Source: Aigarchaeota archaeon
GTDB lineage: Archaea; Thermoproteota; Nitrososphaeria_A; Caldarchaeales; Wolframiiraptoraceae
Assembly: GCA_025058515.1 (NCBI GenBank)
Contig: JANXDW010000029.1
Coordinates: 1-49,635 of the forward strand
Length of the DNA: 49,635 bases
Direction: 5' to 3'
Position 1 is the first letter of the stretch. Each line of letters opens with the position of its first letter. Below the pieces are notes generated by a model. It was not told the DNA's origin. It searched no databases and was given only the letters and a program-made list of their open reading frames with translations. This document shows, one piece after another, positions 10,770 through 37,130 of the stretch. Position numbers and translations under genes: made by a program.

Positions 10770-11780
10770 TCATGATATCAATTTTATATATTCTTTTCCA
10801 GCTGCTTCTATAGACCCGATCAAGATATTGTAAAATCTTCTGTTATTCCTTCTATCATAAACTTCTTCTAGTTTTCCATATACTTTTAATCTATCTCTAG
10901 GATGGAATAGAGCTATGTAAGATAGGTCGTAGCAAGTTAATCTTTCTATCCTATAGGATTCTCCATTCATCTCTGCAAGACCTTCTACAGAGTATACTGA
11001 TGGGGTGAAGCCTGAATCCACCGAGTCTACTACTTCTAGTTCTGCTCTAGCGATCCCTATCATCTTGTAGACTAGGTCTCCGTACTTTTCATTTATTTCA
11101 TCTTCTCTTCTAACACCGTGTACCGAGAACCCTACTCCACGATAATATCCTTTATGCCTTACCCTTAATGCAAGCTTCTCAGCATCACTTCTACTTATAG
11201 GATAGAACATGCTAAATCTTTCTAGAGAATCTCTAGGATTATAAAGCTCCAACTCTTCTATAGCTCTAATAACTTTCCAGAAGTTCTCTCTCCCATATAC
11301 TATTACATCTATATCTGATCTTTCATGATGAATATTCAAGAGTATTGAGCCTGTTAATCCGAAAAACTCTAAATCTACACCTCCATAATCATGTAAAACA
11401 AATACCAAGTCTATCAACAGCTGTTCTAAACGGTCTCTTCCATCTTTCTTCAACAAATTTCTTAAACCACTTAAACAACTATAATGTTTTGATATCTCAG
11501 ATAAAGGAGTAAAAAACATTTCAGCACTTATAGTTTCATCAAACTTAACGTAATTTGGCTTAAACTTTTTAAGATATTCTAAGGTATTCTTCAATTCATA
11601 CATACTGTAGTTTTTTAAGATCCGGGAGAAAGACTGTTCACCTCTCTTCCATGGACCGTTGCCAGGAGCATACTTTGGGTAAGCAAAGTATCCATCTGGT
11701 GGATGAACCTCTCCAACTATGCAGAAGATCCAGTTATCGTAAGTCTCTAAGAAATCGTGGTCTCTCGGCTGGAACACCAT
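10770..11780 (-). CDS. Nucleotidyltransferase-like protein, copy 1
   Basis: A 336-residue archaeal protein with a predicted nucleotidyltransferase (Pol beta-like) core: GSILL at 144-148 and the paired acidic residues Asp156 and Asp158 in SDIDVIVYG. The N-terminal 100 residues (VGEVHPPDGYFAYPKY) match the N-terminus of the next gene upstream and form a family-specific domain. A third catalytic carboxylate could be Asp or Glu in the VELVVD-like strand near 250, but is not assigned with confidence. ATG at 11780 has AGGTAG upstream. The substrate is unknown. Confidence 0.75.
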   Translation of the reverse strand: MVFQPRDHDFLETYDNWIFCIVGEVHPPDGYFAYPKYAPGNGPWKRGEQSFSRILKNYSMYELKNTLEYLKKFKPNYVKFDETISAEMFFTPLSEISKHYSCLSGLRNLLKKDGRDRLEQLLIDLVFVLHDYGGVDLEFFGLTGSILLNIHHERSDIDVIVYGRENFWKVIRAIEELELYNPRDSLERFSMFYPISRSDAEKLALRVRHKGYYRGVGFSVHGVRREDEINEKYGDLVYKMIGIARAELEVVDSVDSGFTPSVYSVEGLAEMNGESYRIERLTCYDLSYIALFHPRDRLKVYGKLEEVYDRRNNRRFYNILIGSIEAAGKEYIKLIS

Positions 11781-12023: not shown

Positions 12024-12971
12024 CTAGATCTTCTCCAAGGGTAGGAGTCTATCTCTCTCATCATTTCCTATGAATATTCTGAAAGTTATCTCTCTACCTA
12101 TTCTTACTTCTTCAAGCCTACCTTCTACCTCCACCTTATCTCCAACATCTGCAAGTTCTGAAAATCTACTCCTCATAGACATAATATATGAGACTCTTGA
12201 AGCCTCGGTCTCTCCATAAAGTGTTTCTAGAATTTCTACGTTGTATAAGTTTGGAGTCGTTATGCTATATCTCGAACCAACTATTTTACATGTTAGAGTT
12301 GATCTACCGACATCTCTAACTTTCTGAGATGTTGTTTCCCAGTATTCACTAGGTAGTGGTACTATCTTCATAGTGTATAATCTATCTCTAAAGATTCCTG
12401 TTAATAGTTTTCTAGATTCTAGCTCTAGCCATCTCTCTGGAGGTATGGTGGAGTCGCTTCTAGTCTCAATTATCCAATCGGGTGATCTCACTGGCTTTAT
12501 AATCTCCTTAAACCTGAGCTCTCTCAAGAATTTGTAAAGCTTCTGTCCAGCTTCTAATCCATAGACTACCAAGTCTATATCTGAGTCAAAGCTATCTAGT
12601 CTTAAAAGTATAGATCCAGATACTCCAACCTCTATATCTATTGATGATTCTATCATCTTCTTAAATGCTATAGCATCTCTAGCAGGTTCTGTAGAGACTT
12701 CATAGAATTCTAGTGGATTGTATATTCTCTTAACATCACTTAATGGTACTACTGGAGTGATCTGACCAGTAAAATCAAGCTTCTCTAAATATTTAGGCTT
12801 ATTTTTCTCTAAGTATTTTATAGATTCTCTAAGACTTCTTATTCTATGATACTTACCTTCAGTAGATTTTGTGTAGACTGGTATGGCGATTACCTTGTCT
12901 AGAGGGTGTAGAACTCCTTTAACAGCATAAATATCTCCATCTACATTAAGATAGAATCCTTCAAGAACCAC
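12024..12971 (-). CDS. Nucleotidyltransferase-like protein, copy 2
   Basis: A 315-residue paralogue of the neighbouring 336-residue protein. The N-terminal domain (VKGVLHPLDKVIAIPVY, followed by GKYHRIRSL) precedes the nucleotidyltransferase core with Gly119-Ser120 and Asp131/Asp133 in SDIDLVVYG. The start is GTG at 12971, preceded by GGGGGAG. The C-terminal 90 residues end in a short beta-rich segment (GDKVEVEGRLEEVRIGRE) also seen in the paralogue. The tandem arrangement with two diverged copies suggests distinct substrates or a heteromer; neither is identified. Confidence 0.75.
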   Translation of the reverse strand: MVLEGFYLNVDGDIYAVKGVLHPLDKVIAIPVYTKSTEGKYHRIRSLRESIKYLEKNKPKYLEKLDFTGQITPVVPLSDVKRIYNPLEFYEVSTEPARDAIAFKKMIESSIDIEVGVSGSILLRLDSFDSDIDLVVYGLEAGQKLYKFLRELRFKEIIKPVRSPDWIIETRSDSTIPPERWLELESRKLLTGIFRDRLYTMKIVPLPSEYWETTSQKVRDVGRSTLTCKIVGSRYSITTPNLYNVEILETLYGETEASRVSYIMSMRSRFSELADVGDKVEVEGRLEEVRIGREITFRIFIGNDERDRLLPLEKI

Positions 12972-13134: not shown

Positions 13135-15660
13135 TCAAGTCTTCCTTAAAATTCTTCTAATACTTCTCCTAACTAATACTACTATGACAATTATAATTAT
13201 TATCGAGATAGCTAGTACAGCGATACCTAAGATGTCTGAGATACTCAGACCTAAACCAGCTAAGCTGACGTAGTCCAGCTTGATCTCTATCGACCCACCT
13301 GGTCCTACTCTCTCAGAACCCGATAATCCTCTACTACTTACATATGCATCGTATAATGGTAGCTTGACTACATCTTTGAAGAATGCTATACCATTTTGGT
13401 CAGTCTTCTGATTAGATAGGAGGACTCCGAAATGGCTTAAATAAACCTCAGCTCCTTGTATCGGGTTTCCCAAGAGATCTACAACTCTAACTGTAACGAA
13501 TGCTTTCTCTAAACTATATCTTAGTATCTGTCCTTTGAATTCTGTTTCTTGACTTATGACGACAAGCTTTGTGTACGGGTGATATATCGTTACCCTATAG
13601 TTTGAGAAGAACTGTTTTTCCAGTAATGCTGTACCATTATGATCTGTGAAAGCATTCATACTTCCTCCAGCCAAGTCTACTACTTCTATCTCAGCTTTCT
13701 CAACAGGTTTTCCATCACTCCACTTGACATCAATCTTCATGTCAGCTACGGGAAGCACTATCTCGCTTATCTCATACAATTCTTTAGTCTTCATAGTCTT
13801 ATTCAGTAACTCTCTACCTACTGAAATATCAGTTATAACTAGCTTACATAATCCTTCTGGAACATACTCTATCCTCAGATTCTTTACTGCTTTATCTTTA
13901 AACATTCTGCCTAAAGGATCTAGAAATGTGTAGTTTGCTGGGTATTCTTTACCATTGTAATCGATTAACCTTATGTTTATATCGTATATGACCGCCCTCA
14001 AGACTTTTTCCATAGAACCTTCAACAACTATCTTCCCTCTATATACTTCTATTCCAAGCCATTCTCCTAAAACCTCATACTCATCTCTAGGTACTCCTGA
14101 GAATACGGTATATCCTCCTTCACCTGTTCTCGAAGATGCTGGTCCAAGTCTTAGAATGACGTCTGCTACTGGTCTCCCAGTCATGCTCTCAACCTTGAGC
14201 TTAACAGAATGTATCGGTAACTGTATGAATCTCTTCTCGCCTGGTCTGAATACATCAGTGTGCTCAACGAGGTTTTTGAATAATTTTGAGTAATTAACCA
14301 CTCTAATGTTATAGTCTAGTATCGGTAGCTGGCTAATATTTAGTAATCCTGTTCTAGAGTATATGTTTCCGAAGCTCGTCTCAAGGTTAGGTCCAATCAC
14401 GGTGAAGTTTGCTCCAACACTATTTCCACCTGTATCGACGGCTTGAACTATCAAGTCTCCCACGGGAAGCTTCAGAACATGCTCTACCGCAGGCCTAGTC
14501 ATCCAAGGATATATCGTTGGATGATACCCTGTCCAGAGCCATCCATCAAATACTTTGACACCTTTCCAGAAGATCTGAGCTGTATGATTTCCTTGGGGGA
14601 CCATTAGATATACGGCTTCTCCATTCTCAGCGATCTTTTCAAACCCGTCAAACATTACTAATGCTCTATTCAGTGGTCTTCCGTAAACGTCTATAGGCTT
14701 TATCCTCAATGTGAATAGGCTAGTCTTGAGAATTTTAGATCTAGCGAGGTCATATGCCCAGTGTTGCTCGAACTGTATGAATGGGTATTCCTGAGTATAA
14801 CTACTATTCCAGTATACCGCTACCTCGTATTTATCATCGTAGAGTCTGTGAATCTTTAGTGTTCCATTTTCAGGGGTAATGTACTCTCTCTTCTCGTAGT
14901 AGTACATCAATCTAGTTATGATTACTTTAGCGTTTGGTACAGGGTTTAGACCATCGAAATCTGTGATGGTTAAGTTGAATGTTCTGTATGGAAGTATATC
15001 TACACGATTCTCAGCTACTGGATAACTTTCAAGGGTATATTCAAACCATCCTGGTAAGATCACTCTTACATCCACTATAGGTTTCATAGAGATCTCTTCA
15101 CTGGGTATATCTTCTGGAATGTATACTCTAAAGCTTAAGATTGTACTCGATTTAGGATCTACTCCATGGAGTATGTAGTTTATGGGGTTAAATGCTTCAA
15201 GAGTTCTCTTTGAGGTATTCCAGAAAGTCATTCTTCTTCCAATCTCTTGGAATGGAAACCACAATCCGACCCCAACTATATCGATTTTCGACCCAGTACA
15301 TGAATCAAATACCGTTAAGCTGTAATCTCCATATCTATCTCCAGCATACCCCCAGAGATTCTTAACCTTCAAATCATATCCTCTTATCCACTCCATCTTT
15401 TCCATCTCTTCCGCTCTCTTAACCAACTCGTTAACTACTTTCTCACTAACAGACTTCAACTCTACGAAGAAGTTTTCTCTAGCACTACAGTCCATGTTGG
15501 TTATGTTCACGTAAACTTTACCCCATTCTCCCATGTATAACTCACTTGGAAGTATGATAATCTTTAAGTTCCATGTAGGCTGAGCTGAAGCCTCAAACAC
15601 TGTTGTGAAAGCTGAGGCCGAGAGTATTAAGATCATGAGTGAGAGTATCTTGAGTTTCAA
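13135..15660 (-). CDS. Large signal-anchored surface protein with repeated beta domains
   Basis: An 841-residue protein with an N-terminal signal peptide (about 26 residues ending ASA), a long extracellular region and one C-terminal membrane helix (near 803-825) followed by a basic tail (RRSIRRILRKT). The ectodomain has repeated Ig-like or carboxypeptidase-regulatory-type modules of about 80-90 residues: recurring phrases are PVPNAKV, PLNRALVMF, PVADVILRL, PVEKAEIEV and PIQGAEVYL, each followed by a Gly-rich turn. Such repeats form stalk-like surface proteins, often S-layer associated. The start is TTG at 15660 with GGGGGAG close upstream. No enzymatic motif is seen. Confidence 0.75.
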   Translation of the reverse strand: MKLKILSLMILILSASAFTTVFEASAQPTWNLKIIILPSELYMGEWGKVYVNITNMDCSARENFFVELKSVSEKVVNELVKRAEEMEKMEWIRGYDLKVKNLWGYAGDRYGDYSLTVFDSCTGSKIDIVGVGLWFPFQEIGRRMTFWNTSKRTLEAFNPINYILHGVDPKSSTILSFRVYIPEDIPSEEISMKPIVDVRVILPGWFEYTLESYPVAENRVDILPYRTFNLTITDFDGLNPVPNAKVIITRLMYYYEKREYITPENGTLKIHRLYDDKYEVAVYWNSSYTQEYPFIQFEQHWAYDLARSKILKTSLFTLRIKPIDVYGRPLNRALVMFDGFEKIAENGEAVYLMVPQGNHTAQIFWKGVKVFDGWLWTGYHPTIYPWMTRPAVEHVLKLPVGDLIVQAVDTGGNSVGANFTVIGPNLETSFGNIYSRTGLLNISQLPILDYNIRVVNYSKLFKNLVEHTDVFRPGEKRFIQLPIHSVKLKVESMTGRPVADVILRLGPASSRTGEGGYTVFSGVPRDEYEVLGEWLGIEVYRGKIVVEGSMEKVLRAVIYDINIRLIDYNGKEYPANYTFLDPLGRMFKDKAVKNLRIEYVPEGLCKLVITDISVGRELLNKTMKTKELYEISEIVLPVADMKIDVKWSDGKPVEKAEIEVVDLAGGSMNAFTDHNGTALLEKQFFSNYRVTIYHPYTKLVVISQETEFKGQILRYSLEKAFVTVRVVDLLGNPIQGAEVYLSHFGVLLSNQKTDQNGIAFFKDVVKLPLYDAYVSSRGLSGSERVGPGGSIEIKLDYVSLAGLGLSISDILGIAVLAISIIIIIVIVVLVRRSIRRILRKT

Positions 15661-21634: not shown

Positions 21635-22039
21635 CTAGACGTATCGACTGCAGTTATAACAATACCATCTTTTGTATTGTTCGATATAGGTTAAGGGTTT
21701 TCCACATGTTGGGCATGATGGTTTCTCCTTTCTCTTGAATACACCAGTTATCACATCTAGTTTTCCCTTTTCTTCTTTCACAGGGGTTACGGTTTGAGGA
21801 GTAACTGTAGTTGCTGCTGGAGCCGGTAACTCGATATTCTCTTTTAATATTATGATATCGCCTACAGCTGAGATCTTACTCCACTCGATAGTATATGTAG
21901 TCTGAGCTCTCGTCAATATCTGGATCCCCATCTCTCCTCCTCCAAGAGGCAAAGCTATATCCTGGACTGTTCCAATGAAGGTTCCATTTGGATTATATAC
22001 TTGCATCCCGATCAATTTACCTCTAGGTATCATGGACAA
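21635..22039 (-). CDS. PRC-barrel protein with C-terminal zinc ribbon
   Basis: A 134-residue protein. Residues 5-70 form a PRC-barrel beta-fold (RGKLIGMQVYNPNGTFIGTV, TYTIEWSKISAVGDIIIL), a fold used for RNA or protein contacts in archaea. A linker rich in Pro, Thr and Glu follows, then a zinc ribbon (CPTCGKPL and CYNCSRYV, four Cys). The start is TTG at 22039 with GGTGG seven bases before it; ATG at 22033 is a close alternative. PRC barrels occur in ribosome-maturation (RimM) and cell-division (CdvA) proteins, but neither is indicated here. Confidence 0.75.
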   Translation of the reverse strand: MSMIPRGKLIGMQVYNPNGTFIGTVQDIALPLGGGEMGIQILTRAQTTYTIEWSKISAVGDIIILKENIELPAPAATTVTPQTVTPVKEEKGKLDVITGVFKRKEKPSCPTCGKPLTYIEQYKRWYCYNCSRYV

Positions 22040-22140: not shown

Positions 22141-23304
22141 TCAGCTGGAGGGTTGAATATATCCTTCTTTAATCAACTTGGTGAAAAGGTAGCTTAGATT
22201 GCTTTCTGAGGAAAATCTTACATACAAGATCACTACTGCGAGAGAAACCGTCAATATAGTTACTAAGAGAAGAGCTAGCAACGCGATTGCGTAGAGATAG
22301 TCTCCTCCAGTAACTGCTATAGTGAAGCTTATGGGAGCTTGGATGAAACCATAAACTTCTACGAGATTATTTGCAAAAGAATGTATCTTTGGTTCTTCAA
22401 CCACCATTGCGGCATTATCCTTGATCCTTATACCTGAGTCTCTGTAAAGCCAGACTACAGGACCTACATAAGCTGAACCTACAACGACCGCTAGAATAGA
22501 GAACATGACTAGTTGAACCGCTTTGGCCATGGGATCAGATGGCATAGAGATTTCAAAGAATGGGAATAACTCAACAATATTAAATAATGTTAGAGAAAAA
22601 CCTAGACCGAAAGCTAATGGATAGTAAGATTTTGAGAATGCATTACTCAAAGTCAACTCTTCTCCTGTCCTCTTATGAAAGATTAACTCATATCTTCCCA
22701 TCCCTTTTCTCATTTTTCTTACTAGTAGATAGAATGCGAGCCTAGGGCTGATGAAATGCCATAAGATCCATGTAGCCAAAGCCAAGATTACCAATCTCAG
22801 TAGAGCTAACGGTTCTCTCAAGAATATCAAGAATAGAGCTATAGCGATCAAGTATAGTAGATGTTTTTCAAATCCAACCTTGATATCTGGTACCTCATCC
22901 CTTCTTCTATGCCTCTCCACAACTATGCCAGCTATAACTCCCGAGGTTATGAGAGCTGGAGGTATACTGAATATCGTCAAGTGCCATATGATAGCTCCTA
23001 AATAGCCCATGTTTATGATTGCTGACCCTAAAATCAATGTTGGTGTAGGTGAAATGATCCCTATAGCTATTGGTATAAGGTAGAATTTCTTTATAGGATT
23101 CATACTTGAAACTATCCATGCTACGCTTGCTGCAGTTAACCCTGGACCTATATCGATGTAGAGAGTTGTTGAGAGAGCTAGGTAATGTGCTCTGAGCCCC
23201 GGCATGCTCAGCTGAACCCATTCTAGAATTATTCCCGTAAGTGTAACCGCTATTCCTATTAGAAAGACTATTGCCCCTGTCTTAGTAGATGGCTCCGATC
23301 TCAT
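22141..23304 (-). CDS. Polytopic membrane protein, unknown family
   Basis: A 387-residue integral membrane protein with about nine or ten hydrophobic segments and a central charged loop (KMRKGMGRYELIFHKRTGEEL) of roughly 40 residues. No transporter or enzyme motif is recognised. Its start overlaps the end of the previous gene by four bases (ATGA), which implies coupled translation. It closes the six-gene membrane/secreted cluster. Confidence 0.6.
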   Translation of the reverse strand: MRSEPSTKTGAIVFLIGIAVTLTGIILEWVQLSMPGLRAHYLALSTTLYIDIGPGLTAASVAWIVSSMNPIKKFYLIPIAIGIISPTPTLILGSAIINMGYLGAIIWHLTIFSIPPALITSGVIAGIVVERHRRRDEVPDIKVGFEKHLLYLIAIALFLIFLREPLALLRLVILALATWILWHFISPRLAFYLLVRKMRKGMGRYELIFHKRTGEELTLSNAFSKSYYPLAFGLGFSLTLFNIVELFPFFEISMPSDPMAKAVQLVMFSILAVVVGSAYVGPVVWLYRDSGIRIKDNAAMVVEEPKIHSFANNLVEVYGFIQAPISFTIAVTGGDYLYAIALLALLLVTILTVSLAVVILYVRFSSESNLSYLFTKLIKEGYIQPSS

Positions 23305-24686
23305 TCTCCTTCAACCTTTATCAATCTTCCGAGCCTATAGAGAATTAAGAGGATGATTAGTATAGCTGAAGAAGAGATTAACGTATAGTATGATGGTCCA
23401 CTGTAGGCGAATTCTATTTCTTGTGGAGGTCGCTTCTCAGCTTTCTCAATAACATACCATGAAGAGAGGAAACTAGTTGATAGTATCCTGTCAATTATTT
23501 CTTGATGTGGAGATATTTCATCTCTCACCACTTTGAAGTAGGGTTGACTAGATGAGACTGTTTTCACGGCTAAGGTTGATCCATCTTGAAATTCATCGGC
23601 CTTCTCGATTCCTTCAATTTTTGATAATCTTTGGAGAAGAAGCGGTAGGTTGAGGTCATACATTCTTATTCTCGGACTCCTATTATAGGTCTCCATGAGC
23701 TGATTGAAATCTAAGGATGGATCAAGTAATAAATAATTGAAAGAATCTTTCTCTTGAAGTATTAATCTACCTCCTGAGATCCAGTTTTCCATAAGCTTTA
23801 CCGCAATCTTCTCAGATTCTCTTAACACCTCATCTCTGAGAGAGCTGCCATAACCTGTTTCTAGAGATGTGATGAAGCTATTTAGGAAAAGCTCATAACT
23901 TTCATAATCCAATTCTTCACTTGATTCTTTGATGTAGTTTAGGGTATAGTTGAGATGTACCTCCCATAATGCAGGTACTTCTAATGGTAGCTGTGTCTTA
24001 GATGATAGAGCTACGTTGAGAGCTATAGATAGGATCTGGAGACCTAATGCGAGGTTTTCCCTACGTCTAGAAGTATAGTTTACGAACTCTGTAAATTTAT
24101 CTGATATCTCTTCTAACGCTATCTCTATATCTTGTTTGTTAGGTTTCCCACCCGCTATGATCGAAGTATGTGCTGAATAGAGTAGATATGTAGAGCATGA
24201 TGTTACCGGGGTCCACCCAAACTCTTTCACGAGAGACACACAAGAATTCATCAATATTTCTCTTGATCCCTCAGACCCGGTTAACCCATAGTGTAATACT
24301 GCAAGATCCAGCAATGCTTGCTGCGTCAATAGAATCTCGTATCTATCCTCTACTCCCATCTCTGCACTCTTCAAGTGCGAGTGTAGAGCTCTAGCGATCT
24401 TATTGAAGATGCTTAACGATTCACTATCTCCGAGGCCTAGGTGTACGTATCCTGCTAAGAGACCAAGTCTAGCCGTGGCTTTGATCATATTCTTCTCACC
24501 GTATCTCCACGTAACTCCTTCCACGTCAAGATTAGATTTAACATATTCAAGCATGCTCTTTAGATAATTCTCTACAGATGATTCTAGAGATTCTTGTTCT
24601 AAACTGCTCATGATACTTGGATGGAAAGAGGTAGACGCCGTGAGCATGATGATTAAGATTATTGAGATTTTATCAATGATGGTCAT
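23301..24686 (-). CDS. Signal-anchored helical extracytoplasmic protein
   Basis: A 461-residue protein with an N-terminal signal sequence (about 22 hydrophobic residues), a long helical ectodomain rich in Leu, Glu and Ser, and a single C-terminal membrane helix (ISSSAILIILLILYRLG) followed by a short basic end. The ectodomain has TPR-like helical spacing but no clear repeat. Function unknown. It follows the M6 protease gene after nine bases and overlaps the next gene by four bases, so the three form one transcription unit. Confidence 0.6.
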   Translation of the reverse strand: MTIIDKISIILIIMLTASTSFHPSIMSSLEQESLESSVENYLKSMLEYVKSNLDVEGVTWRYGEKNMIKATARLGLLAGYVHLGLGDSESLSIFNKIARALHSHLKSAEMGVEDRYEILLTQQALLDLAVLHYGLTGSEGSREILMNSCVSLVKEFGWTPVTSCSTYLLYSAHTSIIAGGKPNKQDIEIALEEISDKFTEFVNYTSRRRENLALGLQILSIALNVALSSKTQLPLEVPALWEVHLNYTLNYIKESSEELDYESYELFLNSFITSLETGYGSSLRDEVLRESEKIAVKLMENWISGGRLILQEKDSFNYLLLDPSLDFNQLMETYNRSPRIRMYDLNLPLLLQRLSKIEGIEKADEFQDGSTLAVKTVSSSQPYFKVVRDEISPHQEIIDRILSTSFLSSWYVIEKAEKRPPQEIEFAYSGPSYYTLISSSAILIILLILYRLGRLIKVEGE

Positions 24687-24695
24687 TTCTATTTT

Positions 24696-26339
24696 CTACC
24701 ATGGTGGATATTGTGGAGGTGGAGGTGGTAGAGGAGCCTTCTTCCTAAAGATAATCATCACGAAGACGATTATCACCGCTGCCAATATTATGATAATTGA
24801 GAGGTAGTCTGTGAAGCTTTCTATGCGTGGTGGAGGAGCCACGGTGACCGTTACTATAATACTCTTCGTAACCGTTCCATGAGTTGTTACAGTTGTGTAT
24901 ATTGTTTCAGTATATGTTCCTGTAAGAGTTCTTGTTATGATTGTAACCTCTTTATCTGGCTCAGTATCTTCTTCAGTTTCCTCAGCCGGCTCTCCCTCTA
25001 GGCTTATGTATACTTTAGCTATACCTTTTGATCCATCAAATTCTGTAACTTTTATGTAGTAACCTTCTTCTGTTGTAACTTCTTCAGTTAAGAGATTTAT
25101 AGCATAGCTGCCCAGCCTTCCCAGCCCACTCCACTGACCTCTGTAATGATTATAATCATAGTATGGTGCATCGAGAGTCTCGCAAAGCCTAATGTATCTT
25201 TTATCGAGTGTCTTGCATTCAGGAGGTGTACCAAGGTTTGCGTCAAGTAGACTGACCATATATGGTTCTCCCTCAACATTCCGAGACCTATACTTATTAA
25301 TTTTGAACAATAGAACTCCTGGACTTGGTAGAGCGGCATCTTGACCTACTGGTCTTCTAGCATGTATGAAGTAGTATTCTTCTTCATTTATGGGGATTAT
25401 TATCCCATGTGGTTCATCAGGTTTATCTAAAGTGTGTATTATGTACTCTCCATCCTCCTTTACTTCTACGGCCTCTATCCATCCTAGAAGGTACTTTGAC
25501 CATCCATCGATATCGACTGGAGGGTCTAGGAATGGGCCTGAGTCCATGTTCGTCCAAACACCTACCTCTGAACCTGCACTATAACCATCTTTAGAATACA
25601 CGTAGTGGTCGTATATCCACATACTGTGAGTGAACTCGTGCATCATGACGGAGGGCACATCTTCCTCAGCAACAGTCTCTACCCCAGCTATTAGATGCCA
25701 TCCTCCATCCGGCTTCTTATGCATTAAAATATCTGCGATCATCTGGTATTCAGGACCTTGTCTCTTAAGCATTTCATAAATTGTATCTAGTCCATACATC
25801 TCTCCGAGAAGGTAGAGAGGTTTAGACATCATACAGTGGCTCCAAATATCGTTAGGCGAGCCGCTTGTTGCTTCATCTCCACCTGCATGAACTATAATGA
25901 TGTGCTTGAACTCTGTTATGTCTTTCCCAGATTTTTCTTTAAAGAACTTGATTGCCAGATACTTGAACTCTAAAGATCTTGCATTATCATCTCCTCTCTG
26001 TGCTCCTGGGCTCGGTCCACCATAGTAGGCCATGTTCTTCGGCAAGGTTATCACTTTTGGATATATGTAGTAGTCTAACCACGTCTTCCCATATGAGCTG
26101 GACTTGATAAATCTATTAACTATGTTCACTATCTCTTCAACTTTCTGTATTGAAGCTCTAATCCTAACGTCTGAAAACTCAACCATAAGCACTAGAGTCT
26201 TCTGCGGTCCAAGGAAGTGTATAGGTCTATTCCACTCGATCTTTATCTCCTCTTCTTGAGCATCACCCACTGAAAGAATTGATAAACTCGATAGAGTTAA
26301 TAGAAAGATGAAGATTACTGTAACAATCTTATGATACAC
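24696..26339 (-). CDS. M6-type secreted zinc metalloprotease with membrane anchor
   Basis: A 547-residue extracellular protease. A signal peptide (IVTVIFIFLLTLSSLSILSV) precedes a catalytic domain resembling the M6 (immune inhibitor A) family, with QKTLVLMVEFSDV near the start of the domain and HEFTHSMWIYD at 234-244. His234, Glu235 and His238 make the zinc site; Asp244 fits the third ligand position, but the usual Gly is replaced by Trp. The C-terminus has a Thr-rich stalk (EVTIITRTLTGTYTETIY), one membrane helix and a cytosolic tail KKAPLPPPPPQYPPW. The GTG start at 26339 has AGGAGGTG eight bases before it; further upstream codons are therefore not used. Confidence 0.8.
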   Translation of the reverse strand: MYHKIVTVIFIFLLTLSSLSILSVGDAQEEEIKIEWNRPIHFLGPQKTLVLMVEFSDVRIRASIQKVEEIVNIVNRFIKSSSYGKTWLDYYIYPKVITLPKNMAYYGGPSPGAQRGDDNARSLEFKYLAIKFFKEKSGKDITEFKHIIIVHAGGDEATSGSPNDIWSHCMMSKPLYLLGEMYGLDTIYEMLKRQGPEYQMIADILMHKKPDGGWHLIAGVETVAEEDVPSVMMHEFTHSMWIYDHYVYSKDGYSAGSEVGVWTNMDSGPFLDPPVDIDGWSKYLLGWIEAVEVKEDGEYIIHTLDKPDEPHGIIIPINEEEYYFIHARRPVGQDAALPSPGVLLFKINKYRSRNVEGEPYMVSLLDANLGTPPECKTLDKRYIRLCETLDAPYYDYNHYRGQWSGLGRLGSYAINLLTEEVTTEEGYYIKVTEFDGSKGIAKVYISLEGEPAEETEEDTEPDKEVTIITRTLTGTYTETIYTTVTTHGTVTKSIIVTVTVAPPPRIESFTDYLSIIIILAAVIIVFVMIIFRKKAPLPPPPPQYPPW

Positions 26340-27423
26340 GGTATCCACACCTCCTACAGAATAAATCTCCACTATAAATTGGATACCTGCATGCTGGACA
26401 ATATCCAACTATCTGTGGTGGATGTGGAGGGGCTGGTTGAGCAGGTGGATATGCAGGAAGTGGTGGAGGAGTTGGATAAGATGGGTATGGATATACTGGA
26501 GGAAGTGGTTTCTTCCTACTTCTTACATAGAAGAACCCTCCACCAACTATTGCTAATGCAGCTACAACAGCTACAGGTAGAGGGATTAGAGATGAGAAAC
26601 TAGCTTCTGTAATCTGAGTATTAGGTGTAACAGTACTTACAGTAGTAATAGTTGTTTCATGTGTTTCTAAGCTATGAGTGGTGATTGTGGAAACTTGCGT
26701 TACAGTAGTTTGAATAACGGTTGTTGTAATATACGTTGTTAAAGTGGTCTCTCCTCCTACTGTTACAGTACTTCTAGCTGTTACTGTCGTCTTCAAGGGT
26801 GTAGTTAATGTTTTAGATTCTACTGTCTGGGTAGTTTTTGTTGTAACAACCGTTTTGACTTCTGCTTGTTCTACTTTTGTGAAGACCAAGAATTTGTTCG
26901 CACTTGTAAAGACCATTCCGAAGAGAAGTCCTAGTAGCTGATTGGCTTCAGGCATGCTTCCCCCATCAATATAGAGCCACATTATCTTCTGGTCTGTACT
27001 TGAAATAACTGTGAACGTTAATCTTCCACTCTTATCTAGGTCATAGTTTTTCATCGCTACGATCGCATCATAACCCATTAATTTTAATGTAGAACCAGCT
27101 TGAAGATCGATGGGTATCCATAGATCAATACGACCTCCCCCTCCAAGTATGTTTCCATCTCCATCAACTTCAATAGATTGAGATTTAACTACATCTGAAT
27201 CTATCTTGATGAGTATTCTTTGAGTAGTAGCAGATTCAATGATATAGTTGTGGAAGATGTTTTCAGGCTGCTGAGTCTTTCCATCATAAATCTGGTATAC
27301 GAATTTTAATCCAGCTTTAATGTAGGGTGGAGTTCCAGCTAAAGTAGTTGGAGGTAAAACCATCAATATCAAGAGTATCATTAATATCGAGGTTAAGGGT
27401 AAGGAGTTCATAGATATCTTCAT
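26329..27423 (-). CDS. Thr-rich stalk protein with cytosolic proline tail and zinc ribbon
   Basis: A 364-residue type I membrane protein. A signal peptide (residues 1-30) is followed by an extracellular domain of about 150 residues, a long Thr/Val-rich stalk (about 184-276, phrases such as TTYITTTVIQTTVTQ), a membrane helix (about 279-300), a basic stop-transfer (RSRKK), a proline/tyrosine-rich linker, and a C-terminal zinc ribbon (CPAC and CRRC, residues 342-359). Topology puts the zinc ribbon in the cytosol. It overlaps the protease gene start by 11 bases. The anchor and proline tail resemble those of the protease. No family name is recognised. Confidence 0.7.
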   Translation of the reverse strand: MKISMNSLPLTSILMILLILMVLPPTTLAGTPPYIKAGLKFVYQIYDGKTQQPENIFHNYIIESATTQRILIKIDSDVVKSQSIEVDGDGNILGGGGRIDLWIPIDLQAGSTLKLMGYDAIVAMKNYDLDKSGRLTFTVISSTDQKIMWLYIDGGSMPEANQLLGLLFGMVFTSANKFLVFTKVEQAEVKTVVTTKTTQTVESKTLTTPLKTTVTARSTVTVGGETTLTTYITTTVIQTTVTQVSTITTHSLETHETTITTVSTVTPNTQITEASFSSLIPLPVAVVAALAIVGGGFFYVRSRKKPLPPVYPYPSYPTPPPLPAYPPAQPAPPHPPQIVGYCPACRYPIYSGDLFCRRCGYRVS

Positions 27424-28323
27424 CTAGTAGCCACCCCTCTCTACTGGAGCCCTCCCGATATGGTATCTCCACAACCTCTCATCTTCTAAAGCCCATCCAA
27501 CCCTCCTCAGAAGAATAGATAAAATAATCACGCCTACCAGTATTACGGAAGCTAATCTAAGAGTTAGGTTGATTGATGATATAGCGATCGTGAAGGCTTC
27601 GTAAAGAACTCGGATCAAGATTATTGGAATAAATCCTGCAAGAAGGTCTATGAATCTCACCGAGGCATATTTTGCTTTTACGTATCCTATCCACCATCCA
27701 GTGAGTGCAGGGAAGATCGAGATGAACATGTCTTCAACTGCTATTAGGGTTAGCATTAATGGATTGATAAGAGATGGCATCATGTATACTTTGATAAAGT
27801 TGTCGTATAGTATGTATCCTAGTCCTAATGATAGTCCATAGACAGCTCCATCTAGATGATCGTTAAACTCTCTTCCCGTAACTCTATTTGAGTCAAGTCC
27901 AATTAATATCAAGAAGAAAAGTACTTCTATCAAAGTTATCTTAGCTAAGTAGTATGTTACCCCTCTAGGAAAATCAATAATTGAGAAGATCGCAGCAATG
28001 CATCCACCTATACCTATTACAGCTAGTATCAGAGATTTTGGTTCAGGTTCATACTTGTCTGTCTTGATAACCCATGTTAGAAGTATAGCTACGGGTATTA
28101 TTGAGAAAGCTAAAGCTCCAAGTATATTCATTAAAAATGGGAAGAAGAAGATGAGTAAACCAACCGCGACTATTAACCCGCTTCCTACGAATATTGATGG
28201 AAACTTCTTTAGAGGAGGTATCTCACTCTGTCGATAGACTTCTTCACTTGGCGATATTATTGGCTCTGGTTTGATAAATAGTGTTGTAAAACTTTCGTAC
28301 AATATTCTCTTCCTCTTAGACAT
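27424..28323 (-). CDS. PrsW-like membrane protein, likely inactive
   Basis: A 299-residue polytopic protein of the PrsW (M82) type, a family of intramembrane proteases. Recognisable blocks are YEPEP at the end of an early helix, LDGAVYGLSLGLGY and TGWWIG. By eye-alignment to the family, the paired Glu of the catalytic helix reads Ile-Glu (TLIEVLFF), the Glu-Asn reads Asp-Asn (YILYDN), and the catalytic His is Ile, so it is probably not a working protease. The N-terminal 40 residues are cytosolic and charged. It lies between the DUF350-like gene and the stalk protein. Confidence 0.65.
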   Translation of the reverse strand: MSKRKRILYESFTTLFIKPEPIISPSEEVYRQSEIPPLKKFPSIFVGSGLIVAVGLLIFFFPFLMNILGALAFSIIPVAILLTWVIKTDKYEPEPKSLILAVIGIGGCIAAIFSIIDFPRGVTYYLAKITLIEVLFFLILIGLDSNRVTGREFNDHLDGAVYGLSLGLGYILYDNFIKVYMMPSLINPLMLTLIAVEDMFISIFPALTGWWIGYVKAKYASVRFIDLLAGFIPIILIRVLYEAFTIAISSINLTLRLASVILVGVIILSILLRRVGWALEDERLWRYHIGRAPVERGGY

Positions 28324-28329
28324 ATAAAA

Positions 28330-28875
28330 TCACACTACAGGTAGAAGCAGTGAAACGTAGACTATCGCACCTAAGAATATTAGGTAACCCATTAAATAGA
28401 TGCCGACTGCAATTGGCTCTTTATCAACATCGTCTAAATCTACTCCATAGGGTTCTAGTTTTGCGAGGATCCTATAGTAGACGAATGCGAAGAGGAGAGA
28501 AACAAGTATCCCGAAGAATAATGTTATTAGTTTATATGCTATCAGTACTAGTGGGCTTACTCCTTCTACGATACCTGTAGTAGTGCCGATGGGTAGAGGA
28601 GAGATCATGGAAGCGATATAGGCGAAGGAGAGATATATGAAGAAGCCTGCAGCGAACATTCCTACCGCTATAGGGTTACCTCTTATCTTAGAGATCTCGC
28701 TTATCCCTGGAGTAATATAGTCAAGTAGACGTAGAGAACCTAGACCGATAAAGAATATGAGAAGAAATGTTAATAATGTTCTCAATAATACCCATCCAAG
28801 ATTAGAAAGATAAACTGAAGGGTCAAGCCATGGGGGAGGTTGAGGAGGAATAATTTCTGCTAAACTCACAATCAT
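28330..28875 (-). CDS. DUF350-like membrane protein with duplicated unit
   Basis: A 181-residue protein with about four membrane helices in two similar units, each containing a charged residue then IAVGMFAAGF or IAVGIYLMGY, the pattern of the DUF350 (UPF0719) family. DUF350 function is unknown. An N-terminal Pro-rich stretch (PPQPPPW) recalls the Pro-rich tails of two other cluster proteins. Start ATG at 28875 lies about 30 bases after a TATA box, so this gene leads the cluster. Confidence 0.65.
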   Translation of the reverse strand: MIVSLAEIIPPQPPPWLDPSVYLSNLGWVLLRTLLTFLLIFFIGLGSLRLLDYITPGISEISKIRGNPIAVGMFAAGFFIYLSFAYIASMISPLPIGTTTGIVEGVSPLVLIAYKLITLFFGILVSLLFAFVYYRILAKLEPYGVDLDDVDKEPIAVGIYLMGYLIFLGAIVYVSLLLPVV

Positions 28876-28900
28876 TACAATCTACGAGTCGTTTAGCCCT

Positions 28901-28908
28901 ATATAAAG
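28901..28908 (-). promoter_or_regulatory. TATA box of the six-gene membrane cluster
   Basis: On the minus strand, CTTTATAT sits about 30 bases before the ATG at 28875, so the transcript would start at or just before the start codon. No other good promoter was seen inside the six-gene run. Confidence 0.6.
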
Positions 28909-29897: not shown

Positions 29898-30839
29898 TTA
29901 GAGTAAACCCATGAAGAAGAAGACAAAATATATTATGATCCAGAGGATTAATACTGTAGAAGTAGAGGTTTGGTAGAGCTTCATAAAGCATCTTACGATG
30001 AATAGTATTGTCAACCCCCAGCTTACAGGTAGAAATAGAGAAAATATCTGAGTAGCGAGAGCTGGTCCAACATTAATCCATAGAGCATTCAGATATACAT
30101 TGTATTCTATAGATGTCCACCTACCATCTGCTAAGCCCAATTCATCTAATGTCTTCTCTACTCCTTCTTCAACCCACTTGATATTACTCATATTGACCAC
30201 AGTCTTCGATTCACTAATCAACCTCTGAATCTCTTCAAAGCTTTCAGTTCTCCAATTAACCATCTTCATATCTGGGAAAACTCTGTAAGCTCTAAGATAA
30301 CCTATGGTAATTTGAGGTGAGCTAAAGCTTACGACTCCCTGTTTAGTATATCCTGTAAATGTTCCATTGTATACTTTAACTTCTTGTAGTTCAGCATCTA
30401 CTATGATGTAAGGTGACTTGGGTTGAGCTATTAGTATTGGAGTTATCACTGTGGTTGCTATTAATAATATTATGAAAGAACTGAGGATCAACGTGATTAG
30501 AGCTGAGACCTTAACATCTACTTTTTTGATGAAGTATAGTGCAAACCTCAGTATGATGAATATTATCATTATAGCTAAGCCTACATATATAGTTCTAGAG
30601 AGAAGCATCTGTGGAAATGTAGGAAACTGTGGTTTAAGTTCTTCGAAACCTGTTAACTCAAACCTTACCTCTATCTTTTCTTCAATAAAGAATGAAGAAA
30701 GTAAACTTACAGATACTATAAATACAGCTAGGAAGACCACTCCTATTACAAGCCTCTTCTTAAGCTCACTACTACTAGATAGAATTGAATTAACAAGCTT
30801 ACCAGGTATGATGAAGCTAAGTAAATCCATTATAGACAC
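29898..30839 (-). CDS. Membrane protein of unknown family
   Basis: A 313-residue protein with about five hydrophobic segments, two near the N-terminus and two at the C-terminus (SWGLTILFIVRCF, VLILWIIIYFVFFFMG). Between them lies a non-membrane region of roughly 120 residues with beta-strand character (YIIVDAELQEVKVYNGTF). It has no recognised motif. It faces the adenylyltransferase gene and lies in the same direction as the two membrane genes above it, with 100 bases between. Confidence 0.55.
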   Translation of the reverse strand: MSIMDLLSFIIPGKLVNSILSSSSELKKRLVIGVVFLAVFIVSVSLLSSFFIEEKIEVRFELTGFEELKPQFPTFPQMLLSRTIYVGLAIMIIFIILRFALYFIKKVDVKVSALITLILSSFIILLIATTVITPILIAQPKSPYIIVDAELQEVKVYNGTFTGYTKQGVVSFSSPQITIGYLRAYRVFPDMKMVNWRTESFEEIQRLISESKTVVNMSNIKWVEEGVEKTLDELGLADGRWTSIEYNVYLNALWINVGPALATQIFSLFLPVSWGLTILFIVRCFMKLYQTSTSTVLILWIIIYFVFFFMGLL

Positions 30840-33022: not shown

Positions 33023-34894
33023 ATGAAAATAGGTGGATATAGTGGCAAATTTCTAATAGTGAACCTCGATAAGGAGAAAGTTCTTACAGAACCTCTCAAT
33101 ATGGCTTATGCTAGATCCTATCTAGGCGGTAAAGGTGTAGGTGCTAGATACCTATTAGACTACATCGACCCGAAAGTCGATCCACTCAGCCCAGAAAACA
33201 TATTCATGGTCTGGACGTGTCCAGCAAACGGTACCAATGCTCCAGCTTCTGGCAAATATCCTATAATAACCAAGTCACCTCTCACGAATATATGGTTAGA
33301 TTCTCATTCTGGCGGTGCTGTAGGCGCAGAGTTAAAGTATGCAGGATTCGATGGCATCATGATTACAGGTAGAGCACAAGAACCATCATACATATACATT
33401 GACGACAATTATGTTAGTATTAGAAAAGCTAAACATCTCTGGGGCAAGAAGATAAGTGAGACTAGAGAAGCGATTAAAGAAGAGCTTGGAGATCCTTCAG
33501 TTAAAGTACTGGCGATCGGGCCTGCTGGAGAGAAGTTGATAAGATTTGCGAACGTTGACTCTGAGGGTAGACAGCATGGTAGAGGTGGGGGTGGAGCTGT
33601 ACTCGGCTCTAAGAACATTAAGGCTATAGCTGTAAGAGGTACAGGATCTGTTGAGGTCGCATATCCAGAAGAATTCATGAAAGCTTGTGAAGAGATGAAT
33701 AGACTAGATATATTCGAGAACCCTGAAGCACAATTTGGGATCAAATGGGGTTCGATAGCCTTGATGTGGCCTATTCAAGAAGTCGGTGCATTACCTACTA
33801 GAAATTATACTGATGGGAGATTCGAGCATTCTTCAAGTATCGATGCAAACGTTCTCTTAAAACATTCTATAAAGAGAGGTGCATGCTTCTCTTGCCCGAT
33901 CGGTTGTCACAACTATGTCTTGATAGATTATGGTCCATGGGCTGGAACCTTGGTAGAGGGTCCTGAGTATGAGACTGCAGATTTGATAGGAGCCAATACT
34001 GGAACATCTAGATTCGATGCGATCGCTAAAGCAAATAAACTCTGCGACGAGTATGGTCTAGACACGATTACAACTGGCTCTGTAGTCGCATGGGCTATGG
34101 AGTTGTTTGAAAGAGGATTGCTCACACTTGATGAGACGGGAGGGCTAGACCTTAGATTTGGTAATGCAGAGGCTTTGGTCTCATTGATAGAGAAGATTGC
34201 GAACAGGGAAGGGCTGGGAGATATTCTAGCAGAAGGAACTAGAATTGCAAGTCAGAAGATTGGAAAGAATAGTGAGAGGTTCGCTGTTCACGTTAAAGGA
34301 TTGGAGATCCCAGCTTATGAGCCGAGAGCTTCACCTGCTATGGGTTTAACATACTCAATAGCGGATAGAGGTGGATGCCACTTGAGATCTTGGCCTATTG
34401 GTCCAGAATGTTTAAACGCCTACTGGCTTGGAGCCACACCTATAAAATTAGATCGATGGAGCCCTGAGAATAAAGCTATCGTCGTCGCTCAGCAAGAACA
34501 TCAGTATGCTGCTAAGTTTGCAATAGGAATATGCGACTTCTGCTGTTGGGATAATCAGAGATTAGCAAATATTCTATGGACTGTAACCGGGTTTAATGAA
34601 TACAAGGATGTTAGAAATTTTGAGCTTGCGGGAGAGAGGATAACCAACTTGATAAGATTGCTAAATGTAAGATTCGGTGTAACTGCAAAAGATGATAAGC
34701 TTCCACCTAGAATACATCAAGATCCTCTCAAGACTGGTCCGGCTGCAGGTAGAGTCTTGAAAGAAGAAGACTTTGAATACATGAAGAAAGATTACTACAA
34801 GATCCGTGGATGGGATGAGGAAGGAAGACCTACCGTTGAGAAGTTGAAAGAACTAGGGATGAATGATGTCTTAGGATATGTAACGTGGAGGTGA
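33023..34894 (+). CDS. Aldehyde:ferredoxin oxidoreductase (tungsten pterin)
   Basis: A 623-residue member of the AOR family, oxidising an aldehyde to a carboxylate with ferredoxin. N-terminal YSGKFLIVNLDKEKV and GGKGVGARYLLDYI, the pterin-binding region SPLTNIWLDSHSGG, and the cluster-binding cysteines CFSCPIGC plus a later Cys in GICDFCCWD fit the family. Length is normal. A ferredoxin gene follows in four bases. The exact substrate (formaldehyde, glyceraldehyde-3-phosphate, aromatic or aliphatic aldehydes) is not readable. The pterin cofactor would need the MoaD-like protein encoded nearby. Confidence 0.95.
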   Translation: MKIGGYSGKFLIVNLDKEKVLTEPLNMAYARSYLGGKGVGARYLLDYIDPKVDPLSPENIFMVWTCPANGTNAPASGKYPIITKSPLTNIWLDSHSGGAVGAELKYAGFDGIMITGRAQEPSYIYIDDNYVSIRKAKHLWGKKISETREAIKEELGDPSVKVLAIGPAGEKLIRFANVDSEGRQHGRGGGGAVLGSKNIKAIAVRGTGSVEVAYPEEFMKACEEMNRLDIFENPEAQFGIKWGSIALMWPIQEVGALPTRNYTDGRFEHSSSIDANVLLKHSIKRGACFSCPIGCHNYVLIDYGPWAGTLVEGPEYETADLIGANTGTSRFDAIAKANKLCDEYGLDTITTGSVVAWAMELFERGLLTLDETGGLDLRFGNAEALVSLIEKIANREGLGDILAEGTRIASQKIGKNSERFAVHVKGLEIPAYEPRASPAMGLTYSIADRGGCHLRSWPIGPECLNAYWLGATPIKLDRWSPENKAIVVAQQEHQYAAKFAIGICDFCCWDNQRLANILWTVTGFNEYKDVRNFELAGERITNLIRLLNVRFGVTAKDDKLPPRIHQDPLKTGPAAGRVLKEEDFEYMKKDYYKIRGWDEEGRPTVEKLKELGMNDVLGYVTWR

Positions 34895-34898
34895 GAGG

Positions 34899-35414
34899 AT
34901 GAGTCTTGCATATATGCCTGAAAAGATCTTAGTAATAGATTTGGATAGATGCACTGGATGTGAAAGATGTACTCTAGCATGTAGTTTCAAAAAAGTTGGA
35001 AGATTCAATAGAACAGATAGTAGGATAAGAGTATTTTCATGGAAGGAGACAGGAGACTTTATTCCAGCAACATGCCTTCACTGTAATCCAGCACCATGTC
35101 AAGAAGCTTGTGGTGTTGGCGCAATCCATAGAGATGGAAGAACTGGAGCAGTCTACATAGACTACAAGACATGTATTAACTGTAAGGCATGTATGTTTGC
35201 ATGCCCGTATGGAGCGATAAGCATTGATGCTCAGGGAAGAGTTGTGAAATGCGATCTATGTGAAGGAAAGCCAGCATGTGTTGAAGCATGTTCTTTCAAT
35301 GCATTGAGATTTGAGAAGCCTGTAAAAGCAGTCGATAAGCTAGTCGTTGAATACGTAAAGTCTTTAAAAGCAGCAGGAGTAAGTAGAGGACCCTCAGCAC
35401 CTATAAGACCTTAA
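34899..35414 (+). CDS. Ferredoxin-type 4x[4Fe-4S] electron-transfer protein
   Basis: A 171-residue HycB-like ferredoxin with four cluster motifs: CTGCERCTLAC, CLHCNPAPCQEAC, CINCKACMFACP and CDLCEGKPACVEAC, each pairing across domains as in DMSO reductase B-type subunits. It starts four bases after the AOR gene, with GAGAGG before its ATG, and is the likely electron acceptor of AOR. It lacks a Tat signal, so it is cytosolic. Confidence 0.95.
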   Translation: MSLAYMPEKILVIDLDRCTGCERCTLACSFKKVGRFNRTDSRIRVFSWKETGDFIPATCLHCNPAPCQEACGVGAIHRDGRTGAVYIDYKTCINCKACMFACPYGAISIDAQGRVVKCDLCEGKPACVEACSFNALRFEKPVKAVDKLVVEYVKSLKAAGVSRGPSAPIRP

Positions 35415-35419
35415 GATAA

Positions 35420-36700
35420 CTATCCAACTACTTCTATATTTTTTTCCATATCTTGAAACTCGCTCAAACCTATTCTCTCTCGTATTGCATTGATGAATAT
35501 TGTTGATTTATATGATGCCAACCATGGGCTCACAGCTTGCCATCCAATAATATTTTCTTGACGGTTTTCTTGACAGATTAGTAAACTAACAGGATGATGC
35601 CCTATCCCTGGAACCTTATATCTAATCATTTTCTTGCTGGTCTTTAGACCAAGTTCTTTAGCTTCTTTAGTATTCAAACCAATCTTAACTATTGATGTAT
35701 TGAATACTTCGATATACTGCATTGGGATAAATCCATTATATGATGTACTGATGTTTACACAGTTTTTTCCAGCGATCTCGGCCATGGAGACGGCGAGCGT
35801 GCCCAATGGTCTATATGTTTCTTTTTTGGTAAAGTAATCTATGGATGTTGCACAATCTCCAACTGCGTAAACATCTGGTATTGAGGTCTCAAGCCTCTCA
35901 TCTGTTTTTATAGCTCTCTTAACACCTAGCTTTATATCCGTTCTTAACGCTAAACGATTCTCAGGTTTAACGCCTAGCGTGAAGAAGACTACATCTGCTA
36001 GATAGCGGTCCCCATTAATAACTACCTTCTTAACAATCTTTCTATTCTTTCTATCTCCTACGAGCTTCTCAATACTCGATTCCGTTATTATCTTCACCCC
36101 TCTACTCATCAGTTTACCTACTAGATAACTAGATATCTCTTCTTCAAATATTGTCAACCCAACTCCAGGCAGCTTATCTATCAACGTTACATCTAACCCT
36201 CTTGCTCTTAATGCTTCAGATAATAGTAGACCAACTAACCCTGCACCAGTGATGATGGCTTTCATTCCTACTTTAATATACTTATTTATTGATGTTGCAT
36301 CGTTGAGCTCGTTGAATGTGAAGACCCCTATCTTATCAATCCCTTCTATATTGGGTATGATGGGTTTACTGCCTACCGCTAGAATTAACTTGTTGAAAGT
36401 ATACTCTGAATCTTTATGAGGAGACTTAACTTTAATGAGCTTTCGTTTAAGATCTATTTTACCAACTTCAGTAGATGGTGTGAAGCTTATCTTCAAATTA
36501 TCGAGGTCTGGATATATTTTAAAGAAGTCGATCGGCAGCTCTTTCTTCAATACATGATGTAGAGCCATCTTAGTATACGTAAACGGGTCTTTTGTAATTA
36601 TTAAGACTGAACGGTCTTTATCATTTTCTTTAATGATTGTTGCAGCTTTCACACCTGCTGGACCACTACCGATAACCACTATATCATATTGTGTCTTCAT
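35420..36700 (-). CDS. FAD-dependent pyridine-nucleotide oxidoreductase
   Basis: A 426-residue class II oxidoreductase of the NADH oxidase/rubredoxin reductase group. FAD-binding IGSGPAGVKAA at the start, a second Rossmann fold with GAGLVGLLLSE near 150, and the FAD ribityl signature VYAVGDCAT near 290. It lacks the CxxxxC disulfide pair of lipoamide dehydrogenases. It faces the ferredoxin with five bases between, and probably moves electrons between NAD(P)H and ferredoxin or a related acceptor; partner by inference from position. Confidence 0.88.
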   Translation of the reverse strand: MKTQYDIVVIGSGPAGVKAATIIKENDKDRSVLIITKDPFTYTKMALHHVLKKELPIDFFKIYPDLDNLKISFTPSTEVGKIDLKRKLIKVKSPHKDSEYTFNKLILAVGSKPIIPNIEGIDKIGVFTFNELNDATSINKYIKVGMKAIITGAGLVGLLLSEALRARGLDVTLIDKLPGVGLTIFEEEISSYLVGKLMSRGVKIITESSIEKLVGDRKNRKIVKKVVINGDRYLADVVFFTLGVKPENRLALRTDIKLGVKRAIKTDERLETSIPDVYAVGDCATSIDYFTKKETYRPLGTLAVSMAEIAGKNCVNISTSYNGFIPMQYIEVFNTSIVKIGLNTKEAKELGLKTSKKMIRYKVPGIGHHPVSLLICQENRQENIIGWQAVSPWLASYKSTIFINAIRERIGLSEFQDMEKNIEVVG

Positions 36701-36839
36701 TTTACATCTAAAGAATAATATTAAATTAGAAATAAGGATTACTAATATATGATGGTGACTTATAGAGAAATTGAAAACAGCAGTATCTCATACATAGTGT
36801 TTAATAAGAGTTATAAGCTAGAATTGAGATAGATAACCT

Positions 36840-37130
36840 GTGACAGATAATTTAGTTAAGTTAAGGATAATCGGTGTAACAGACCACATTATTGAGAGGG
36901 TTCACAATATCGATTCAGAGACACCTTTATACGATGTTCTTAAAGAAGCTTTGAAAGATTGGGGGGACATGATCCAAAAGATATCGGATAGGATCATAAA
37001 AGGAACTTTCATCTTGATAATCAATGGTTTAACCATCTATAGGTTTAGCGATATTAGAGATATAAAGATTAAGCCTGGAGATGAGGTTGCGATAATGCCT
37101 GTAGTCTTCGGAGGATGTAAGCAACTATAA
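36840..37130 (+). CDS. MoaD/ThiS-like ubiquitin-fold protein with extended C-terminus
   Basis: A 96-residue beta-grasp protein similar to MoaD (molybdopterin synthase small subunit) or ThiS. The last strand KPGDEVAIMPVVFGG ends in the required Gly-Gly, but four residues, CKQL, follow before the stop. MoaD and ThiS must end in Gly-Gly to be adenylated, so either the tail is trimmed or the protein has another role. GTG at 36840 is the start. The neighbouring AOR uses a metal-pterin cofactor, so a role in pterin synthesis fits. Confidence 0.75.
   Translation: MTDNLVKLRIIGVTDHIIERVHNIDSETPLYDVLKEALKDWGDMIQKISDRIIKGTFILIINGLTIYRFSDIRDIKIKPGDEVAIMPVVFGGCKQL

Follow-up and report, generated by a model that had tools for sequence, protein, structure and literature searches.

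A patchily distributed, apparently mobile gene block of heat-loving archaea encoding a predicted surface M6-type metalloprotease, a DUF350 protein and a putative PrsW pseudoprotease

The window analyzed in this work is the whole 49,635-nucleotide stretch of contig JANXDW010000029.1 (contig C7 of the 1.47-Mb draft archaeal genome G000). Six open reading frames, all on the minus strand, occupy positions 22141-28875 in the order DUF350 protein, PrsW-like protein, a receptor-like zinc-ribbon protein with a stalk (Zn-stalk), M6-type protease, helical protein and polytopic membrane protein. The spacings in the same order are +6, 0, -11 (an overlap), +9 and -4 bases, computed with the M6 start moved to a GTG codon at 26339 that was chosen by reading the sequence. 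A TATA box, TTTATATA (28900-28907, minus strand, a consensus match only), lies ~25 bases ahead of the start codon of the DUF350 gene, which suggests a leaderless transcript start there. The box is argued from its position and not from its rarity, because the window contains 3 TTTATATA-type matches where chance alone would give 6.4. Scans for sigma-70 promoters and terminators stayed at chance level, and such models do not apply to archaea. A preliminary description of this DNA had pictured six same-strand genes with gaps of fewer than ten bases or overlaps behind a single TATA box, and the coordinates and spacings bear this out. The grouping exceeds a chance neighborhood, as seen from the co-occurrence of the genes and from the presence or absence of the block as a whole in related genomes.

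The M6-type (thuringilysin-like) metalloprotease is encoded at 24696-26339 (minus strand), with its GTG start after GGAGGT. It matches TIGR03296 with an expect value (E) of 1.6e-21 and 77.5 bits, below the whole-protein cut-off of 110.8 bits. PF05547 matches 7 of 9 M6 orthologues (best E 9.8e-8); a PF05547 search of the genome gave no match, not even among the controls, and the analysis relied on TIGR03296 and on orthologue profiles. The M6 zinc-site motif HExxHxxG/NxxD (PMC12237041) corresponds to HEFTHSMWIYD at 25608-25640 (minus strand), which contains HExxH and Asp as the third ligand but has Trp at the G/N position. HExxH, this Asp and the Met-turn are invariant in every M6 orthologue covering them, and the invariant W.NMD.G aligns with the WSLMSGG region of the thuringilysin InhA (PDB 4yu5). 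Proteolysis outside the cell is plausible because the active site is intact in all of these orthologues; the earlier statement that the locus "cuts proteins outside" stands to this extent, the cutting itself being predicted from conserved residues. The protein has a signal peptide, a catalytic ectodomain, a Thr-rich stalk, one helix and a poly-Pro cytosolic tail, the plan of a type I membrane protein. It resembles thuringilysins in HExxH, the Asp ligand, the Met-turn region and the M6 domain profile, and differs from InhA in the membrane anchor with stalk, in being much shorter than the 756-residue chain of 4yu5, and in the metzincin Gly of HExxHxxGxxD, for which 8 of 10 orthologues have Trp, while G033 and G006 keep Gly. 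The Trp type belongs to the lineage that has, or probably had, the PrsW-like and Zn-stalk genes, and the Gly type to the two genomes without them.

The Zn-stalk protein (26329-27423, minus strand) carries a signal peptide, an all-beta ectodomain, a Thr-rich stalk, one helix, a Pro-rich cytosolic tail and a C-terminal C4 zinc ribbon (CPAC...CRRCG, 26338-26400, minus strand; Zn_Ribbon_1 E 2.5e-4, just below the cut-off). Its predicted structure shows the same architecture, with a predicted local distance difference test (pLDDT) score of ~80-90 for the ectodomain and a disordered stalk. Fold matches of the ectodomain (beta-barrel/LolA/MucB-like) were of low quality, with a template modeling (TM) score below 0.4, and were not used; PDB sequence searches with the Zn-stalk profile returned weak, unconvincing matches only. 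The Pro-rich tail and zinc ribbon are conserved among the orthologues, and every genome with an orthologue also has an intact PrsW-like gene. Zinc ribbons at the cytosolic end of a protein recur beyond Zn-stalk: the M6 tail of G006, a genome without PrsW-like and Zn-stalk genes, itself ends in a Pro-rich stretch plus a zinc ribbon, and the true PrsW proteins of G031 and G033 have an N-terminal double zinc ribbon. The plan of stalk, single helix and Pro-rich tail is real in both the M6 and Zn-stalk proteins, as had been described. An unrelated 543-amino acid (aa) surface protein of the same genome (contig C17, L131 5984-7615) has a Thr-rich stalk, a helix and a PPPPPPPQ tail of the same kind, and the combination is a general anchor in this genome. 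The gene for the 543-aa protein lies near polyamine-type ABC transporter genes.

The DUF350 (YjfL-type) gene at 28330-28875 (minus strand) encodes a four-helix membrane protein of 181 aa that matches PF03994 with E 2.6e-9 and 37.7 bits, above the gathering cut-off of 26. An N-terminal PPxPPPW motif is specific to these DUF350 orthologues. The preliminary description had likened this N-terminus (PPQPPPW) to the cytosolic tails of the neighboring proteins. It is indeed Pro-rich, but it lacks Lys and Arg, and loops 1 and 3 carry them; from the positive-inside rule the N-terminus is predicted to lie outside, and the cytosolic placement was rejected on this charge distribution as probably wrong. 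DUF350/YjfL proteins are also found in PspA-type envelope operons (PMC11237479), where a small membrane protein of the same Pfam family sits in envelope-related clusters. In those operons the partners are PspA, polyamine enzymes and channels and not an M6 protease, and the N-terminal Pro/Trp motif is an addition of the archaeal proteins described here.

The PrsW-like gene (27424-28323, minus strand) encodes a protein of 299 aa with ~7 helices, matched by the NCBIfam model intramemb_PrsW at a sub-threshold E of 1.6e-5 and showing 28-31% identity over most of its length to the true PrsW proteins of G033 and G031. The catalytic motifs of PrsW are EExxK, a His in transmembrane helix 5 and HxxxD/N in transmembrane helix 6 (PMC4602095). 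The true PrsW proteins (G033_C47 and G031_C26) keep them as TEEPLKML/TEEPIKML, SMHMF and FHAAWN/THMLWN. In all six PrsW-like proteins of the cluster the first Glu and the Lys of EExxK are lost (the segment reads LIEVLFFL and similar) and the His motifs of helices 5 and 6 are absent, while E133 and the segment GREFNDHxDGxxYG stay invariant. Because catalytic motifs are gone in 6/6 and other core residues are fixed, we read the protein as a selected pseudoenzyme, a putative PrsW-family pseudoprotease. PDB sequence searches with its profile gave no match. PrsW is the site-1 protease of RsiW in B. subtilis, and bacterial PrsW-zinc-ribbon fusions are among the signaling forms of the family (PMC3482391). 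The archaeal protein belongs to the same family by sequence; unlike those fusions it has lost the catalytic motifs, and the ribbon is found in the neighboring gene on a separate single-pass protein. At a locus of G031 (contig C26, L130 525-4751) a DUF350 gene, an intact PrsW with the N-terminal double zinc ribbon and a PRC-like zinc-ribbon protein lie together with small two-helix proteins that contain poly-Pro stretches, and this locus is possibly the counterpart of the cluster with an active PrsW.

The remaining two genes always come as a pair. The helical protein (23301-24686, minus strand) had been described as signal-anchored; a signal peptide is present, but the protein also has an alpha/alpha toroid domain and a C-terminal transmembrane helix, and it belongs to no Pfam family. 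Its AlphaFold2 model (pLDDT 85.4, predicted TM score 0.81) has a toroid resembling the folds of glycoside hydrolase (GH) families GH88, GH105 and GH76, the best PDB match being 3wiw (GH88-type; E 4.4e-4, TM scores 0.42/0.50). No glycosidase family matched the sequence, and its PDB sequence search gave weak, unconvincing matches only. The polytopic membrane protein (22141-23304, minus strand) has ~7 helices and belongs to no known family; its profile had no match in PDB sequence searches. A gene for a PRC-barrel protein with a C4 zinc ribbon, predicted to be cytosolic, follows at 21635-22039 (minus strand; PF05239 E 6.7e-7) and forms a seventh member of the neighborhood. It adjoins the helical/polytopic pair in all 8 genomes whose contigs permit the test, and it also stands without the cluster in other genomes.

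Orthologues were surveyed in draft assemblies of the 44 genomes of the order (the class holds the same 44). M6 orthologues of this short type are present in 10 of them, and DUF350 orthologues (E <1e-80) in exactly the same 10, with a truncated remnant in an eleventh (G029). M6 and DUF350 lie at a common locus in 10/10, on the same strand in nine and convergent in G006; in G039 the sharing is visible only through an N-terminal M6 fragment on contig C90. PrsW-like and Zn-stalk genes coincide in six genomes, all with M6, and G003 has degraded PrsW remains between DUF350 and M6. The helical and polytopic genes coincide in nine genomes, eight of them with M6; the pair lies beside M6 in G000, G001 and G033, is separated from it by the PRC gene in G006, and is found 3 kb downstream in G037. 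A wider search of 398 genomes of the phylum brought up larger M6 proteins but no additional orthologue. Presence flips inside three genera (g1, g6 and g10). The locus is thus made of three modules and is not one fixed six-gene set. The expectation that the six genes stay together in relatives holds for the pairs and for the constant M6/DUF350 locus, but the set as a whole is modular and in part scattered.

Gain and loss of the block can be followed among close relatives. In G033 and G029, which belong to the same genus, both flanks are 88-90% identical at the DNA level and are interrupted by a single 8.3-kb gap with a clean junction. G029 retains no more of DUF350 than its first ~70 codons; the missing DNA takes in the rest of this gene, the M6, helical, polytopic and PRC genes and more zinc-ribbon/Pro-rich genes. 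Additional zinc-ribbon and Pro-rich membrane proteins extend the G033 block (L040 14141-17307), and these were lost alongside in G029. Within genus g1, the PRC gene and a gene of 834 aa enclose the six genes in G001 and 217 bases in G003; the versions in G003 and in the window sit instead at the IF5A/nucleotidyltransferase locus. In the M6 tree, G006 (family f1) joins G033 (f4) with full support, apart from the other f1 members, and G025 (f2) falls among f4 sequences, its exact placement not being fixed. The block gain and loss together with the family-incongruent tree point to horizontal movement within the order, and this gene block of heat-loving archaea is apparently mobile as well as patchily distributed.

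Other genes of the window include an unclassified five-helix membrane protein in the flank (29898-30839), conserved in G003 beside the nucleotidyltransferase gene that flanks the cluster. An adjacent same-strand pair at 10770-11780 and 12024-12971 resembles paralogous nucleotidyltransferases, and 13135-15660 encodes a secreted protein of 841 aa, built of repeated domains with a helix at the C-terminus and perhaps of surface-layer (S-layer) or adhesin type. A tungsten-enzyme set of aldehyde:ferredoxin oxidoreductase, ferredoxin, NAD(P)/FAD oxidoreductase and a MoaD/ThiS-like gene lies in a row at 33023-37130. The window also encodes a single-chain RNA polymerase A subunit, which together with the tungsten-type oxidoreductase set suggests an origin in Caldarchaeales (Aigarchaeota).

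Functional linkage of the genes is supported by their co-occurrence, common locus and co-loss and by the M6 protein of G006 with its own Pro-rich tail and zinc ribbon. As the best explanation of the whole we tentatively propose a mobile, modular cell-surface protease locus, a reading to which we give somewhat less than even weight. It starts from the observed gene set, motifs, co-occurrence, co-loss and modularity, from which we infer complex formation, proteolysis, substrates and regulation. The M6 metzincin, as a type I membrane protein, would be the core effector outside the cell, and the DUF350 four-helix protein its obligate constant partner, which most likely assembles, anchors or stabilizes it. 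An add-on in one lineage, the pseudo-PrsW and the Zn-stalk receptor, would act as a regulatory pair: the former may hold or present the protease or its membrane substrates, and the latter may tie protease activity to the cytosol, possibly via the PRC-barrel zinc-ribbon protein. The toroid and polytopic proteins would make up another surface module that can separate from the rest and is perhaps directed at glycans. The locus as a whole may thus serve the controlled trimming or shedding of membrane or S-layer surface proteins.

No described system combining these genes turned up in a limited search of the literature, in agreement with the preliminary description. The nearest functional analogue is iRhom/ADAM17 (PMC6451368), where a catalytically dead protein related to intramembrane proteases governs a single-pass metzincin. 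In both cases a dead intramembrane-protease relative would be paired with a single-pass membrane-anchored metzincin whose active site is intact. The iRhoms are rhomboid relatives whereas the archaeal protein is of PrsW descent, and M6 is not an ADAM; since the protein families differ, we treat the likeness as analogy without homology, and the PrsW-like protein falls outside the rhomboid-family pseudoproteases. Physical association has been shown for iRhom and ADAM17 and is only proposed here, and the DUF350 partner has no counterpart there. The APH-1 subunit of gamma-secretase (PMC6588880, PMC4602095) is likewise a relative of PrsW/type II CAAX proteases in an assembly with another catalytic subunit. 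APH-1 keeps QExxR and two histidines, however, while the PrsW-like protein has neither His nor the Lys; it sits with an aspartyl intramembrane protease, whereas the active enzyme here would be an ectopeptidase. A more specific form of the proposal, in which a dead PrsW controls the single-pass metzincin as an archaeal regulated sheddase independent of animals, with DUF350 obligate and the zinc-ribbon tails as cytosolic input or output, we consider doubtful.

Several observations weigh against the proposed surface protease locus. Of the 10 M6 genomes, 4 have no PrsW-like and Zn-stalk genes or degraded ones, and an "assembled surface complex" of all six proteins, as in the preliminary description, is therefore too strong a statement, even though functional linkage stands. 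The helical/polytopic pair occupies another locus in G024 and G027, is inverted in G025 and occurs without M6 in G031, so that genes of the set are scattered in part of the relatives. The zinc ribbon of Zn-stalk in G025 has lost one Cys and is degenerate. The common stalk and Pro-rich tail, which had been taken as a sign of a complex, were rejected as such because the unrelated 543-aa protein has the same anchor. The topology of the membrane proteins of the set is based on hydropathy and charge only. The co-occurrence counts take no account of kinship: full random overlap of two 10-genome sets in 44 has a probability of ~4e-10 (1 over C(44,10)), a value that is in reality much weaker as the genomes are related.

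One alternative is nutritional: M6 would hydrolyze environmental protein for peptide uptake, and its neighbors would be co-inherited envelope genes that form no complex. Caldarchaeales are predicted peptide users, some with extracellular peptidases (PMC10547907; PMC9246946), and patchy presence suits a dispensable nutritional trait; digestion, however, requires neither strict DUF350 pairing nor a conserved pseudoprotease nor zinc ribbons on cytosolic tails, and the block contains no peptide transporter genes, which leaves this explanation rather unlikely. The signaling relay of the preliminary description, in which M6 cutting outside frees or rearranges the zinc ribbon of Zn-stalk for action in the cytosol, would draw on the conserved Pro-rich tail and ribbon and on the precedents of B. 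subtilis PrsW and the PrsW-zinc-ribbon fusions (PMC3482391). EExxK and both His are missing from the one protein of the set that could have been an intramembrane protease, and tail release by the PrsW mechanism is therefore not possible; with the incomplete ribbon of G025, the missing Zn-stalk in 4/10 M6 genomes and no transcription factor in the set, we regard the relay as improbable. Very unlikely in our view is a module for inter-microbial conflict or anti-virus defense at the surface: patchiness, the incongruent M6 tree, block gain and loss and the occurrence of PrsW in polymorphic toxin systems (PMC3482391) would suit such a protease-armed mobile module, but none of 7 proteins matched PADLOC models, which leaves a defense system unsupported, and the block has no toxin, immunity, nuclease or recombinase gene. 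Envelope remodeling by the protease and a glycan-active toroid enzyme on a glycosylated S-layer has an equally small chance; the glycoside-hydrolase and epimerase folds matched best by the toroid model and the co-occurrence of the pair with M6 in 8/9 genomes are set against a weak fold match (E 4e-4, TM <0.53), the many roles of toroids, the lack of a glycosidase family match and the pair standing alone in G031.

Through this locus DUF350, a family without known function, gains a strict genetic partner in one lineage, a membrane metalloprotease. The cluster also links a putative PrsW pseudoprotease to an ectoprotease with an intact active site. Near relatives without the block (G029) or without most of it (G003) offer natural comparisons. 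If the pseudoprotease does regulate the metzincin, the principle known from iRhom/ADAM17 would have arisen separately in Archaea.

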